Assembly (NCBI RefSeq): GCF_001267405.1
Contig: NZ_CP012369.1
Span: 1,204,001 to 1,268,000 of the forward strand
DNA from: Moorella thermoacetica
Lineage (GTDB): Bacteria > Bacillota > DSM-521 > Neomoorellales > Neomoorellaceae
Direction: 5' to 3'
Length of the DNA: 64,000 nt
Part shown: piece after piece, positions 25,052-46,762 of the stretch
How the letters are laid out: every line of letters begins with the position of its first letter
Numbering within the stretch: position 1 is the first letter of the stretch
Notes under the pieces: model-generated
What the model was told of the DNA's origin: nothing
What the model saw: the letters and a program-made list of their open reading frames with translations, nothing else
Database searches by the model: none
Program-made: the position numbers and the translations under genes

Positions 25052-26386
25052 TTAAAATTTAGTCAAGTACTGGTCAATCTCCCACTGGTGGACCCGGGTG
25101 CGATACTCCTCGCATTCCATCTTTTGAGCCAGGGTCAAGCGTTCGTAGATATGGGGTCCCAGGGCCTCACGGATGACTTCATCTTGCTCCAAGGCCGCCA
25201 GGGCCTCCTCCAGGCTGCCGGGCAGGACGCCGATTCCTTCTGCCTTAAGCTCCGCCGGGGTCATAGCAAAGATGTTTTTATCCGTCGGCGGCGGTGGTGT
25301 CAGGCCCTTTTTGATACCATCGAGACCGGCCTTCAAGAGAACAGCCAGGGCCAGGTAGGGGTTGCAGGAGGGGTCCGGGTGACGCACTTCAATCCGGGTG
25401 GAGGCCCCCCGCTTGGCCGGTACCCGGATCAAGGGGCTCCGGTTGCGCGGCGACCAGGCGATGTATACCGGCGCCTCGTAACCCGGCACCAGGCGCTTGT
25501 AGGAGTTAACCGTGGGGTTGGTAACGGCCGTCAGGGCACGGGCATGGGCCATGATGCCGGCGATAAAATGGTAGGCCACCTGGCTTAAGCCCAGTTCATC
25601 AGAGGGATCGTCAAAAGCGTTTTTACCGTCTTTAGATAAGGAAAGGTTGGCATGCATACCGGAACCGTTGATGCCGTAGATGGGTTTGGGCATAAAGGTG
25701 GCGTGGAGGCCATGCCGCTGGGCGATGGTCCGGACCACAAATTTAAAGGTAGCGATCCGGTCGGCGGTAGTCAGGGCCTCGGCATATTTGAAATCAATCT
25801 CGTGCTGCCCGGGAGCCACTTCATGGTGGGAGGCCTCGATCTCAAAGCCCATTTGCTCCAGGGTCAGGACCATATCCCGGCGAGCGTCTTCACCCAGATC
25901 CACCGGAGTCAGGTCAAAGTAACCGGCGCGGTCCTGGGTCTCCAGGGTCGGGCGGCCGTCGGCGTCGGTGTGGAAGAGGAAAAACTCGGCCTCCGGCCCG
26001 GCATTCATGGTAAAGCCCATTTCCGCCGCTTCGGCCATTACCCTTTTTAAGGTGGAGCGGGGGCAACCGGCGAAGGGCGTGCCGTCGGGGTTGTAGACAT
26101 CACAGATCAGCCGGGCCACTGAACCCTCATGGGGCCGCCAGGGAAAAACAACAAAGGTATCCGGGTCCGGCCGCAGGTACATATCGGACTCCTCAATGCG
26201 AACGAACCCTTCAATTGAAGATCCGTCGAACATCAGCTCGTTATTGAGGGCCTTGGGGAGCTGGTCCACGGGAATGGCTACGTTTTTGAGTACGCCAAAG
26301 ATGTCCGTAAACTGGAGGCGGACAAACTTGACCCCCCATTCCTCGGCCTGTTGCAGGACCGCTACTCTCTTTTCTTTGTCATCCAT
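25052..26386 (-). CDS. glnA: Glutamine synthetase type I (copy 1, glt-linked)
   Basis: ATP-dependent amidation of glutamate; forms a dodecamer. The 444-residue protein has [10 protein letters not shown] (ATP/metal), [41 protein letters not shown], and the [32 protein letters not shown] signature in order. No adenylylation-site motif NLYDLPP is seen, as in Firmicute GSI-alpha. ATG 26386 has AAGGAGG upstream; an upstream in-frame start is less likely. It leads the split glutamate synthase genes. Its 5' leader is structured but differs from that of copy 2. Confidence 0.96.
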
Positions 26387-26496
26387 GGAATTTACCTCCT
26401 TCAAGAATGTGCTTCCTTATTGGTGGAGAGCTACCCTACTACCGCCAGATACTTGCTGGTTTTCCAAGCCTGCTTTCTCCGGCCTGACGATGTGGA

Positions 26497-26589: not shown

Positions 26590-26638
26590 ACAAAATAACG
26601 CCTGAGGGGTATAAGTAACCTTCCCCTTCAGGACGCCG
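26590..26638 (-). terminator. Terminator after the ANTAR regulator gene
   Basis: The minus strand pairs CGTCCTGAAGGGG with CCCCTCAGGCG over a 14-base loop, then TTATTTTG. It separates the regulator from glnA copy 1. Confidence 0.7.
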
Positions 26639-26686
26639 TTGCCCTAAAGCAGCTATCTTGAGCATATCGAATTTTAATCAGTACCC

Positions 26687-27313
26687 TTAAGCCCTTCCGG
26701 AATTCCCGCTATCATTTTTCGCCTTATGCCCGCCCTGCTGGAGCTCGTGGGCGACAATAATGGCTTCGGCGATGGTTTTCATGGGTACGCAGCGATCCAT
26801 ACTCTGGCGCTGCAGGCGGCGGTAGGCTTCAGCCTCCGTTAAACCCATGGTATCCATTAATATCCCCTTGGCCCTTTCCACAACCTTGCGGGAAGCCAGA
26901 GTTTCCTTCAACTTGCTGATCTCCTGCTCCAGCCTGGTTACCCGGCGATAATTGGCCAGGGCGGCTTCTACTGCCGGGATAAGGGTACTCTCCTGTACCG
27001 GTTTAATCAAATAAGCAAAGACAGGAAAATCGCGGGTCCTGATAATCAAGTTCCGGTGCCAGGAGGAGGCCAGGAGAATTATCGGTGCCACCCGGTCCTC
27101 ATCGATAACGCGGGCTACTTCCAGGGCATTGGTGCCCTGGAGATCGCTATCCAGGATTACCAGGTTGGGCTGTAGGGTGCGAATCATCCGCAGGGCCTGG
27201 CTGCCATCCGGGGCTTCCCCGGCGATGAGGTAACCCTCACGTACCAGCATGTACTTCAGGTTTTGCCGGGCAGACGGGTCGGCACAGGCAATAAAGATTT
27301 TCGCTTGCTGCAT
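26687..27313 (-). CDS. ANTAR-domain response regulator (RNA-binding antiterminator)
   Basis: Cytoplasmic two-component regulator whose output domain binds RNA hairpins. Residues 1-120 are a receiver: FIACADPSA with the acidic site, LVILDSDLQG with the phospho-acceptor Asp (about 55), LLASSW with the Ser switch, and YLIKPV with Lys. A coiled coil (LEQEISKLKETLASRK) leads into the ANTAR domain (about 140-195: VVERAKGILMDTMGLTEAEA, YRRLQRQSMDRCVPMKTIAEAII). Start ATG 27313 begins the family sequence; no strong ribosome-binding site is visible. No histidine kinase gene is adjacent. Its position between two glnA genes, and matching hairpins in nearby leaders, point to nitrogen control, as for clostridial NitR. 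Confidence 0.92.
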   Translation of the reverse strand: MQQAKIFIACADPSARQNLKYMLVREGYLIAGEAPDGSQALRMIRTLQPNLVILDSDLQGTNALEVARVIDEDRVAPIILLASSWHRNLIIRTRDFPVFAYLIKPVQESTLIPAVEAALANYRRVTRLEQEISKLKETLASRKVVERAKGILMDTMGLTEAEAYRRLQRQSMDRCVPMKTIAEAIIVAHELQQGGHKAKNDSGNSGRA

Positions 27314-27338
27314 GGACTTTGTTCACTGCCCCCCTCGC

Positions 27339-27376
27339 GCTACGTCGTTGTAGCTATATCGAGGACGCCGTCGCCC
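27339..27376 (-). promoter_or_regulatory. Tandem ANTAR-type hairpins in the regulator's own leader
   Basis: On the minus strand, first GGGC [GACGGC] GTCC (27363-27376), then GCTAC [AACGAC] GTAGC (27339-27354). Both have six-base loops with G at position 4; the second also has A at position 1. They lie between the promoter and the start codon, with the second 25 bases before ATG. There is no terminator, so translational control or autoregulation is possible. Confidence 0.5.
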
Positions 27377-27408
27377 CGCGAAATATTTTTTCATTTATTA
27401 TGGAACCT

Positions 27409-28719: not shown

Positions 28720-30051
28720 TTAAAACAGTGTAAGGTAGTGGTCTATTTCCCACTGGTGGACCTGGATACGATACTGTTCCCATTCCTTCTCCTTGGCCTC
28801 GACAAAATGCTGGTAAATGTGATCCCCCAGGGCCTCCCGGATCACTTCGTCGCGGGAGAGTTCCGCTAAGGCATCTTTTAAATCACCCGGCAGGCTGCCG
28901 ATGCCCAGGTCACGGCGTTCGGCAGGCGTCATCTCATAGATATTGCGTTCTGTCGGAGCCGGGGGCTGAATCTGTTTCTTGATCCCGTCCAAACCGGCTT
29001 TCAACATAACGGCCAGGGCCAGGTAAGGGTTACAGGACGGGTCGGGGTTGCGTAATTCTATTCTAGTTGAGGCCCCGCGCTTGGCCGGCACGCGTATCAA
29101 GGGGCTGCGATTGCGGGGGGACCAGGCGATATAGACCGGGGCCTCAAAACCTGGTACCAGGCGTTTATAAGAATTGACTGTCGGATTGGTGATGGCCGCC
29201 AGGGCCCGGGCGTGGTGCATCAGGCCGCCAATATAGTAATAGGCTACCTTGCTTAATTGCAGGGGGTCGTCCGGATCATAGAAGGCATTCTGGCCTTCTT
29301 TAAATAAGGATTGGTGGGTATGCATGCCGGAACCGTTGATGCCAGCCACAGGCTTGGGCATAAAGGTGGCATGGAGACCGTGGCGCTGGGCGATGGTCCG
29401 GACGACAAATTTAAAGGTGGCAATCTTATCGGCCGTGGCCAGGGCGTTATCATACTTAAAGTCTATTTCGTGCTGGCCCGGGGCCACCTCGTGATGGGAA
29501 GCCTCAACCTCGAAACCCATGGCTTCCAGGGAAAGGACCATATCCCGGCGCGCGTCTTCACCCAGGTCGACTGGGGAAAGGTCGAAATAGCCGGCCTGGT
29601 CGTGGGTTACGAGGGTCGGTTTTTGCCCGTCGGTATGGAAAAGGAAAAACTCCGCTTCCGGGCCGGCGTACATGGTATAGCCCATAGCTTCGGCTTCAGC
29701 CAGGACGCGCTTTAAAACCCCCCGGGGACAGCCGGCAAAGGGGGTGCCGTCCGGGTTATAGACGTCACAGATCAACCTGGCTACGGCCCCGTCCATGGGC
29801 CGCCAGGGGAAAATGGCGAAGGTGGTCGGGTCAGGCCGCAGGTACATGTCGGATTCTTCGATGCGGACGAAACCGTGGATGGAAGAGCCATCGAACATTA
29901 ATTCGCCGTCAAGGGCTTTCTCTAGCTCGGCCGGGGTTATGGCCACATTTTTTAATACCCCGAAGATATCGGTAAACTGGAGCCGGATAAAACGGACGTT
30001 CATTTCTTCAACCATCTGCAGGACGTCTTCTTTGGTCAGTTGTTCATTCAT
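28720..30051 (-). CDS. glnA: Glutamine synthetase type I (copy 2, ANTAR-type leader)
   Basis: Second full-length GSI, 443 residues, closely similar to copy 1 along the whole length, with the same [51 protein letters not shown] and [20 protein letters not shown] blocks. Differences cluster at the N-terminus and in the loop [10 protein letters not shown]. All metal and substrate motifs are intact, so it should be active. It is a single-gene unit with its own strong promoter and an attenuator-type leader, so it is likely the regulated copy, whereas copy 1 serves the glutamate synthase operon. Direct tandem origin is plausible. Confidence 0.96.
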
Positions 30052-30066: not shown

Positions 30067-30118
30067 TAAAAAAGATAAAGCCCGCCGCGGCTTACACTGG
30101 GTGTAGCCGCTACGGGCT
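30067..30118 (-). terminator. Leader terminator of glnA copy 2
   Basis: On the minus strand AGCCCG-GCGGC-TACAC pairs with GTGTA-GCCGC-CGGGCT around a CCA loop, followed by TTTATCTTTTTT. It lies inside the 5' leader, before the ribosome-binding site, so it acts as an attenuator. Its first arm shares the bases GCC with the preceding small hairpin. Confidence 0.85.
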
Positions 30119-30152
30119 TCTTTGCCTCTTCCCTGGGAACCACGTTGCTCCC
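30115..30152 (-). promoter_or_regulatory. ANTAR-type paired hairpins in the glnA2 leader
   Basis: On the minus strand P1 is GGGAGC [AACGTG] GTTCCC (30135-30152) and P2 is GGC [AAAGAA] GCC (30115-30126), eight bases apart. Both loops are six bases with A at 1 and G at 4. P2's three-base stem is weak alone and is mutually exclusive with the terminator, as expected when a bound ANTAR protein must stabilise it. Confidence 0.7.
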
Positions 30153-30179
30153 TATTTTACTTGCAATTATTTTTTAGTT

Positions 30180-30207
30180 ATTATAACATACTTCGCCAGG
30201 AGGTCAA
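30180..30207 (-). promoter_or_regulatory. Promoter of glnA copy 2
   Basis: The minus strand reads TTGACC, 16 bases, TATAAT, about 130 bases before the start codon. Confidence 0.75.
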
Positions 30208-31000: not shown

Positions 31001-31041
31001 GGGGTTGCAAGGGTGTAACCCCGGTGGGCAACGTCGTCCGT
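31001..31041 (+). promoter_or_regulatory. ANTAR-type tandem hairpins in the asnB leader
   Basis: P1 is GGGGTTGC [AAGGGT] GTAACCCC (31001-31022), an 8-bp stem; P2 is GGGC [AACGTC] GTCC (31026-31039), extendable by wobble pairs. Both loops have A at 1 and G at 4. An alternative stem CAACG / CGTTG (31029-31043) is exclusive with P2. A further hairpin AGGCATT / AATGCCT ends shortly before the ribosome-binding site. No T-tract is seen, so control may be translational. Confidence 0.6.
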
Positions 31042-33086: not shown

Positions 33087-33362
33087 TCTCCCCGTATTTC
33101 AGGCCTGCCTGGCCGGTAACCTGTTCGGCAGGGGCCGTGGTGGAAAGGTGGTGAGGTTTACTGTAACAAATTTGGCGTGGCTTTAACCTCGGTAGCACCC
33201 TGTCGGGCTGGATATTCCTGAAATGGGAGCCCTTGCTTACCCTGACTTCATGTTGACCTTTGGGGACACTTATATCGCTGAAGCGGTATCGACCGGGCAA
33301 ACTGCTTACGACAAACGGCGGCGGGAAGTACCGGTTCACAATTAGATTGGAGGTGCTGGACA

Positions 33363-33861: not shown

Positions 33862-35228
33862 TTAACTGCCCTTACGTTGAAGTTCTACCAGGCTCATAGC
33901 CACGGAATGGGCTTTGTTTTTAATTTTGCGGGTATCCATGGTTAAAAGCTCGCCGTTGCGGACTATAATTTTTCCGTTAACGATGGTTGTATTGACGATA
34001 TTACAGTTGCCGCAACAAACTAAAGCTACCACCGGATCATGACAACCGGTAAAGGCGATATCGTCGAGGTCTATGAGGACGATGTCGGCGGCTTTATCTA
34101 TTTCAATACTCCCGGTATCATCCCGTCCCAGTACCGCCGCTCCTCCCCGGGTAGCTATTTTAATTACCTGATAGGCGGAAAGTCCTTGATCACCATAATA
34201 TAAATGGTTTAAAAGATAGGCACGCTTTACTTCTTCCCACATGTTGGAGGCATCATTGCTGGCGCTACCATCCACAGCGATACTCAGCTTAACTCCTGCT
34301 TTTAAAAGTTCACTGCTCCGGCAAAAACCGCTCCCCAGCTTCATATTAGATGAGGGGCAATGGGCGACCCCCGAACCGGACAGTCTTTTCATCTCCACGT
34401 CATTCAGGTGAATAGCATGGGCGAACCAAACATCGGGCCCCGTCCAGCCCAAATCTGCCATTAGCTCTGCCGGCCGGCGATTGTAGTTCTCCAGGCAGTA
34501 TTTCTCTTCATCTTTCGTTTCTGCCAGATGGGTATGTGGAGCATTACCTGTTTTTCCCGGGCCAAATCCCTGGCCTGCTTCATGAGATCCAGGCTTACTG
34601 AAAAAGGTGAGCAAGGGGCGAGGGCTATTCTCAGCATGGCATAGGGCTCTGGTTGATGGTATTTTTCTATCAGCCTCAGGGAGTCTTCTAAAATGACATC
34701 TTCTTTTTGGACAACGGCATCGGGGGGCAAGCCGCCCTGGCTTCGGCCTTTGGACATTGAACCCCGGGTTGCGTGAAAGCGAATTCCCAGCTCCTGGGCT
34801 GCCTGAATCTCGCTATCAATTAGATTACCAGCCTGGCCCTCTGGAAAGACATAGTGATGATCGGCCGTCAGGGTACAACCAGTGCGCAACAGTTCACTCA
34901 TCCCAACCAGGGCTCCATAATAAACGGCTTCCGGCGTTAGATGGCGCCAGAACTGATAGAGGCCGGTAAGCCAGGAAAAAAGGGGCATATCCTGTACTTC
35001 CGGCAATCCCCGGAAGAGGGTTTGGTATAAATGGTGATGGGTATTTACCAGGCCCGGTATGGCTATCATGCCATTCCCGTTCAGGGTAGCTACTTGATGG
35101 TTTGTCTTTAAATTTTTACCCAAAGAAACAATCTTCGGCCCATCGATTAAAATGTCGACGTCTTTTAAGACTTCGTCTTGATCATTGCAAGTAACTACAT
35201 AAGAAATGTTTTTTATTAATAATGCCAT
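33862..35228 (-). pseudogene. Frameshifted amidohydrolase (8-oxoguanine deaminase / TRZ-ATZ type)
   Basis: Metal-dependent deaminase family acting on purine- or triazine-type rings. The first 233 codons (from ATG 35228, AGGAGGTAAAG upstream) give a normal N-terminal half with VNTHHHLYQTLFRG and ADHHYVFPEG, up to REKQVMLH. The frame then breaks near 34530-34540 and the rest (THLAETKDEEKYC, WFAHAIHLNDVEM, VAHCPSSNMKLGSG, VDGSASNDASNM) continues in another frame to 33862. Two extra bases in that spot would explain it. Both halves keep all expected metal and active-site residues, so the lesion is recent, programmed or a sequencing error. Confidence 0.85.
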
Positions 35229-43620: not shown

Positions 43621-45112
<1,492 letters not shown>

Positions 45113-46096: not shown

Positions 46097-46762
46097 TTAG
46101 TTTACATCGGTAGCTATTCTGGCAGCCCGTTCATGCCGTAGCCAGCGGCGACAGATGGCCACCCCTTCCCCGGCTTCCCGGACCCAGGCGTCGGCGCCGA
46201 CGTACTGGCAGACGCGCTCATTGACCAGGCCGCCGATGAGGACCTTGACCGGGGCCATGCTTTCCACCAGGTGCATCAGGTGAACGGTACGGCGCATAGC
46301 CTCAAAGGAAGAGGTCAGCAGGGCCGAGAGACCAAGGACCCGGGCCCCGGTCTTCTGGATTAGAGTTAGAAAAACGTCAGGCGGTATATCCACCCCTGCG
46401 TCATAGACCCGGAAACCCTCGCAGCGCAGCAGGGAGATAGTGATATTTTTGCCGATGTCGTGAATGTCCCCTTCAACTGTACCAAAGACAATATCTGCTT
46501 CGGCCGGTTCCTGCCTATCTGCCAGGGGTACTTTCAGAAAAGGCTCGATAAGTTTTAAGGCTTCCTGGAAAATCTCCGCCGACATGACCAGATCGCTCAA
46601 AAAATACTCACCGCGGGCGTAAAGCTCGCCAACTATATTCAAACCCCGACGGCATTCTTCTACAATTGCCAGGGGCGGTTGTCCCACCGCAAGGCTGTGG
46701 CTGACAAGCTCCAGTACCCTTTTTTCTTCCAATTTTCCCATAGCCTGGGCCAAGAGGCTCAT
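46097..46762 (-). CDS. Corrinoid (B12-binding) protein of a methyltransferase system, copy 1
   Basis: Methyl carrier between a substrate methyltransferase and the pterin methyltransferase. Residues 1-90 are the helical cap (AMGKLEEKRVLELVSHSLAVG, FLSDLVMSAEIFQEAL); residues 95-215 are the Rossmann B12 domain with GDIHDIGKN (D-x-H-x2-G, lower cobalt ligand), SALLTSS and IGGLVN. Start ATG 46762 has GGAGG upstream. It follows the UTRA regulator by 29 bases. The alternative start upstream would overlap that gene. Confidence 0.88.
   Translation of the reverse strand: MSLLAQAMGKLEEKRVLELVSHSLAVGQPPLAIVEECRRGLNIVGELYARGEYFLSDLVMSAEIFQEALKLIEPFLKVPLADRQEPAEADIVFGTVEGDIHDIGKNITISLLRCEGFRVYDAGVDIPPDVFLTLIQKTGARVLGLSALLTSSFEAMRRTVHLMHLVESMAPVKVLIGGLVNERVCQYVGADAWVREAGEGVAICRRWLRHERAARIATDVN

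Follow-up and report, generated by a model that had tools for sequence, protein, structure and literature searches.

The leader of glnA2, which encodes a type I glutamine synthetase in Moorella thermoacetica, carries every sequence-testable defining feature of an ANTAR dual-hexaloop antiterminator, a class known from EutV, NasR and NitR. We consider it very probable that this leader is an ANTAR dual-hexaloop transcription attenuator, in which termination is the default and the active form of the ANTAR protein encoded at 26687-27313 permits readthrough. What can be read from the DNA itself is the anatomy of the leader, the exclusivity of its alternative structures, their conservation and compensatory changes, the single ANTAR gene of the genome, and the co-occurrence of single hexaloops with ANTAR genes. 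The window analyzed here is a 64-kb stretch of the Moorella genome, which comprises 2.53 Mb in one contig.

Results

Two hexaloop hairpins and a terminator precede glnA2

The elements of the leader and its gene are as follows.

30180..30207, minus strand: glnA2 promoter, TTGACC-16-TATAAT with TG before the -10 box; TTGAC and TATAAT are retained in the orthologues
30135..30152, minus strand: P1 hairpin GGGAGC-AACGUG-GUUCCC, 6 bp, loop A1 and G4, with compensatory changes
30115..30126, minus strand: P2 hairpin GGC-AAAGAA-GCC, 3 bp, loop A1 and G4, 3' arm common to the terminator
about 30068..30120, minus strand: intrinsic terminator followed by UAUCUUUUUU, 5' part inside P2, -29.5 kcal/mol
28720..30051, minus strand: glnA2, type I glutamine synthetase (TIGR00653), the gene presumed to be controlled

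The promoter (30207..30180, minus strand) matches the consensus at 11 of 12 positions and has an extended -10 TG, and the RNA probably starts near 30173. P1 and P2 are separated by the 8-nt spacer AGGGAAGA. Promoter, 6-bp P1, eight-base spacer and 3-bp P2 with the loop AAAGAA all lie at the place that a first-pass annotation had given, on the minus strand. Its reading of the anatomy as ANTAR-type also holds, as there are two A1/G4 hexaloops, a P2 that is exclusive with the terminator, and an ANTAR gene close by.

The computed energies are -9.6 kcal/mol for P1, -3.8 kcal/mol for P2 and -29.5 kcal/mol for the terminator, and the fold of the 98-nt leader is 5.4 sd below that of dinucleotide shuffles. 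In an equilibrium walk that followed the RNA as it lengthened, the probability of P2 ranged from 0.04 to 0.91 and dropped to 0 once the 3' arm of the terminator existed. Fold and walk bear out two earlier proposals, namely that the 5' arm of the terminator reuses the GCC of P2 and that P2 (-3.8 vs -29.5 kcal/mol) is too weak to outlast the terminator unaided. P2 and the terminator are mutually exclusive both by anatomy and in the walk.

A dual A1/G4 hexaloop with an overlapping terminator occurred in none of 15 random 64-kb strands with the dinucleotide composition of the window, and once per real strand. The second match of the scan, at 46668-46714 on the plus strand, is a candidate of the same kind, with two A1/G4 hexaloops, a weak stem and a hairpin resembling a terminator.

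The layout is conserved and its stems covary

The layout of the leader is kept before glnA2 in nine genomes of the Moorella family, representing two genera. A1 and G4 are present in both loops of all nine orthologous leaders, with variation at the remaining loop positions, in the spacer and in the P2 stem. The P2 stem has 3 bp in the window genome and one relative (G002) and 4-5 bp in the remaining seven; the linker between P1 and P2 ranges from 3 to 8 nt, and the 3-nt cases have the longer P2 stem.

Pairing was counted in 20 distinct dual leaders, taken from before glnA2 and before the ANTAR gene. In this set 92.3% of the cells were paired, compared with 76.2% after shuffling and 41-54% when the partners were slid. 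Covariation, a figure to be read with caution as the sequences are related, was 0.541 vs 0.253 in shuffles (none of 500 as high) and, when the glnA2 and amt leaders were aligned (98% paired), 0.340 vs 0.147. Compensatory changes among non-orthologous leaders are visible by eye: GGGAGC/GUUCCC, GCAAGC/GUUUGC and UCAAGC/GUUUGA.

These data bear on two other explanations of the glnA2 leader. Leader terminators can act constitutively, and the terminator might be unregulated, giving a low basal level or insulating glnA2 from upstream transcription, with the hairpins being incidental. We regard this as very unlikely: a strong promoter stands before the terminator and the next gene in that direction is divergent, leaving nothing to insulate, and the conserved hairpins show compensatory changes and never lose A1/G4. 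Control by a metabolite- or tRNA-sensing leader (a riboswitch, a glutamine riboswitch or a T-box) acting with no protein would fit the usual setting of such RNAs, a leader and terminator before a biosynthetic gene, but is most improbable, since the leader matched no Rfam family (Rfam 15) at curated or permissive thresholds in a search that did recover a SAM riboswitch (44994-45111 of the window, minus strand, 91.5 bits), and two tiny A1/G4 hairpins are too little conserved structure for an aptamer.

The ANTAR protein and the leader of its gene

The candidate reader of the leaders is encoded 2.7 kb downstream of the glnA2 leader and is the single ANTAR match in the whole genome.

26687..27313, minus strand: receiver-ANTAR protein, presumed reader of the leaders (PF03861, 80.5 bits)
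27329..27377, minus strand: dual-hexaloop leader of the ANTAR gene; scores 52 bits with model R1, whose training set includes it; 13 leaders compared
27377-27362, minus strand: P1 of this leader, GGGGC-GACGGC-GUCCU
27354-27339, minus strand: P2 of this leader, GCUAC-AACGAC-GUAGC
27336-27329, minus strand: Shine-Dalgarno sequence GAGGGGGG, with the dual hexaloop directly before it and no terminator

The receiver domain keeps the phospho-acceptor Asp and the Lys, while its acidic pair is replaced by C/S/T and A/S in 14 of 14 orthologues. The acidic pair normally binds Mg2+ for phosphorylation, and the receiver set that defines the phosphorylation-activated EutV type (acidic pair, Asp, Thr/Ser and Lys) is thus incomplete here. 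With the pair lost, activation may not proceed as in EutV, and the input may be protein contact rather than phosphorylation. Protein contact has been described as the input of AmiR.

In the leader of the ANTAR gene, loop base 1 of P1 is G in the window genome and two relatives, deviating from the usual A1. The dual fold (-12.1 kcal/mol) competes with a nearly isoenergetic fold in which the 3' arm of P1 hides the Shine-Dalgarno sequence (-12.7 kcal/mol). From these computed folds it is plausible that the ANTAR gene autoregulates its own translation, with either sign possible.

The glnA1 leader has a single hexaloop

The second glutamine synthetase gene of the window has a leader about 3.5 kb from that of glnA2.

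25052..26404, minus strand: glnA1, second glutamine synthetase (TIGR00653)
26591..26644, minus strand: glnA1 leader with one hexaloop, GGGC-AACGGC-GUCC (26644-26631), and an overlapping terminator, 20 bits

The first-pass annotation had held that this copy has no attenuator, which is wrong: an identical 14-mer, GGGCAACGGCGTCC, forms an A1/G4 hexaloop hairpin in 12 glnA1 leaders from five genera, and the terminator builds its 5' arm in part from the 3' arm of the hairpin. The terminator is somewhat degenerate in the window genome (-21.0 kcal/mol, tail UUAUUUUG). No conserved P1 was found upstream of the hexaloop in these 12 leaders. Having one invariant A1/G4 hexaloop rather than two, the glnA1 leader is not classed as a dual-hexaloop antiterminator, although it may work like one. 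The different responses that had been predicted for the two synthetases therefore do not follow from presence versus absence of an attenuator, and could at most follow from dual versus single hexaloops.

Related leaders at other nitrogen genes

Next to these genes are the split glutamate synthase genes (minus strand) and, on the plus strand, asnB (asparagine synthase) and a PII gene. A covariance model was built from the glnA2 and ANTAR-gene leaders, both of which were training members when the window was scored. Besides the glnA1 leader (20 bits), it gave two further leaders.

31001..31039, plus strand: asnB leader, GGGGUUGC-AAGGGU-GUAACCCC, 3 nt, GGGC-AACGUC-GUCC, weak score of 13 bits
33018..33085, plus strand: amt-PII leader, GCAAGC-AGUGUA-GUUUGC, 6 nt, GGGU-GAAGAA-GCCC (G1, G4), weak score of 9.8 bits

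Both were accepted despite the weak scores because dual elements recur across genomes, before asnB in nine and before amt-PII in five. The asnB leader of the window genome has no clear terminator, and asnB in three other genomes (G012, G016 and G017) has a single hexaloop with a terminator instead of the dual form. The amt-PII element overlaps a strong terminator. The bare pattern GGGCRANGNNGTCC is at noise level in its own genome (18 matches vs 29 for the reversed pattern), and terminator overlap or conservation was therefore required. Weak model matches in relatives (G000 at 813 kb, G014 C73 and G007 C34) were rejected, having no overlapping terminator or conserved leader.

The amt gene itself is absent between its leader and PII in the window: about 1.6 kb that is present in relatives such as G013 has been deleted at 33178-33205 (plus strand), the ends matching G013 positions 322 and 1953, so that PII now comes immediately after the attenuator and the remaining end of amt. 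The amt leaders of G004 and G005 have, by eye, an apparent second, single hexaloop overlapping a second terminator. Nearby on the minus strand (33862-35228), two overlapping frames resemble, again by eye, a frameshift-split amidohydrolase gene.

Elsewhere in the genome, a glutamine-synthetase-like gene near C1:2311735-2313200, with counterparts in relatives, is preceded by two widely separated hexaloops, the second of which overlaps a terminator. Two relatives have a glutamine-synthetase-like gene after PII whose leader contains a dual hexaloop with an overlapping terminator (L165 in G016, L172 in G015). In G015 this dual element is retained although the search of that genome revealed no ANTAR gene. 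Another glnA of the relatives (L048, L053, L055 and L056; the copy of the window genome is at C1:1713704) has a very short leader that opens, about 20 nt after TATAAT, with the hairpin GGCGUCC...GGACGC-UUU. This hairpin could compete with upstream pairing such as AGUGAA/UUCACU, and the leader may be a small attenuator of another kind, with no clear hexaloop.

As judged from the sequences, the ANTAR-gene, glnA1, glnA2, asnB and amt-PII leaders most likely form a small nitrogen regulon with one presumed regulator.

Single hexaloops across bacterial genomes

When one genome per species was scanned, a hexaloop of the glnA1 type with an overlapping terminator was found at 94 loci in several phyla. 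At 42 of these loci, the sequence stretch around the element (8 kb at most) also contains an ANTAR gene. Many of the genes that follow the elements match a reference glutamine synthetase, glutamate synthase or Amt by BLAST. Others were recognized by eye, from the first residues only, as nitrite reductase, nitrate uptake or glutamate dehydrogenase genes, and a few loci precede unrelated genes. In a phylum draw of 398 genomes, an ANTAR domain was present in 202 and the single-hexaloop pattern with terminator in 27, all of them ANTAR-positive (hypergeometric P = 4.5e-9; by genus 18/18, P 5e-6; kinship makes these values optimistic). The reversed control pattern matched once in the draw.

On this evidence, the proposition that ANTAR proteins commonly antiterminate from a single hexaloop stands at about even chances. 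On that view, GGGC-AANGNC-GUCC with its overlapping terminator but no P1 would represent a second, widely distributed kind of ANTAR attenuator at nitrogen genes, and a single regulator would use it alongside the dual form in the same genome. On the other hand, the glnA1-type leaders may have an overlooked P1, distant or with a non-canonical loop, so that all elements are truly dual. This is possible but on the doubtful side. EutV antitermination needs both loops and a limited linker, a single stem-loop binds EutV less well (Ramesh 2012, PMC3369931), and the glutamine-synthetase-like leader described above retains two widely spaced hexaloops. In the glnA1 leader of the window, GCU-CAAGAU-AGC could form a hairpin 7 nt upstream, with C1 rather than A1, but this is not conserved in the loop of G013 nor in other genomes. 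A canonical P1 (an A1/G4 hexaloop on a stem of 4 bp or more, located in the 50 nt upstream) was absent from all 29 Bacillota-type loci, which come from a collection other than the phylum draw and include one from Elusimicrobiota, and was recovered in 9 of 9 positive controls. When the criterion was relaxed to a loose G4 hexaloop with the first base left free, only 8 of 49 loci had one upstream. Furthermore, the -10 box is 6-8 nt upstream of the hexaloop at asnB in G016 and G017 and at glnA1 in G012, so that little RNA can precede the hairpin. Over all loci, promoters immediately upstream of single hexaloops were at chance level (2 vs 2.2 expected), and the argument for a transcription start at the hairpin is thus confined to these individual cases. 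A canonical P1 was found at 4 of 30 loci of the phylum draw and at 11 of 61 other loci. A dual form of the glnA1-type motif also exists, and the single form is commoner.

Discussion

We propose the following scheme for glnA2, modeled on the EutV scheme established by experiment and on the nitrogen-limitation proposal for NitR. By default, polymerase would start near 30173, P1 would form, P2 would exist briefly, and the terminator would replace P2, giving a short RNA of about 100 nt. An active ANTAR dimer would bind the A1/G4 hexaloops, P1 and then P2, as in the EutV model (Walshe 2022). With P2 held, the GCC arm would be occupied, the terminator would fail and glnA2 would be transcribed. The trigger would presumably be nitrogen limitation, in line with the proposal for clostridial NitR. 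The leaders of glnA1, asnB, amt-PII and the ANTAR gene itself are, most likely, targets of the same protein too. ANTAR binding, action as a dimer, the direction of control and the signal at glnA2 are all taken by analogy with those systems. The receiver without the acidic pair, and the dual element of G015 in a genome without a detected ANTAR gene, count against this scheme.

If the scheme is right, an acetogen's synthesis of glutamine and asparagine and its uptake of ammonium would come under one presumed RNA-binding regulator. The dual glnA2 and single glnA1 leaders, presumably with one reader, would be a natural experiment on the need for two hexaloops, and if single hexaloops are indeed used, dual and single forms could set different response thresholds. 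The single-hexaloop attenuator is possibly the new part: our literature search, with subscription papers and supplementary tables outside its scope, found no paper on such elements. The minimal ANTAR binding site has been redefined as one hexaloop, with antitermination needing two, and the natural use of single hexaloops was posed as a question for further work (Walshe 2022, PMC8934654).

The closest known system is EutV acting on the eut leaders of Enterococcus faecalis (Ramesh 2012, PMC3369931). Like those leaders, that of glnA2 has two A1/G4 hexaloop hairpins, a P2 that overlaps the 5' arm of the terminator, and an 8-nt linker within the natural EutV range of 5-12 nt (3 and 14 nt are poor; PMC3369931); a receiver-ANTAR protein is likewise encoded nearby. 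Unlike in the EutV system, the genes concerned serve nitrogen assimilation and not ethanolamine use, the Moorella receiver has no acidic pair, no partner kinase was identified, and the regulon also has single-hexaloop and translation-type leaders. Nitrogen genes, including those of glutamine synthesis, were predicted as ANTAR targets in 2012 (PMC3369931). Among these predictions, the nitrogen regulons of Desulfotomaculum, another organism, likewise have several ANTAR elements per genome, at genes of glutamate and glutamine synthesis, ammonium transport and PII, as in Moorella. NitR of Clostridium saccharobutylicum has been proposed as an antiterminator of glnA/GOGAT upon nitrogen limitation (Stutz 2007, as cited in PMC6316151). 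The likeness to Moorella lies in the gene neighborhood, where the ANTAR gene adjoins glutamine synthetase and glutamate synthase genes. Finally, the Moorella ANTAR-gene leader, with its dual hexaloop beside the Shine-Dalgarno sequence and no terminator, resembles the actinobacterial and mycobacterial ANTAR RNAs, which overlap the ribosome-binding site and repress translation when bound (PMC8164766). Unlike in those RNAs, the competing fold that hides the Shine-Dalgarno sequence in Moorella would make activation equally possible.
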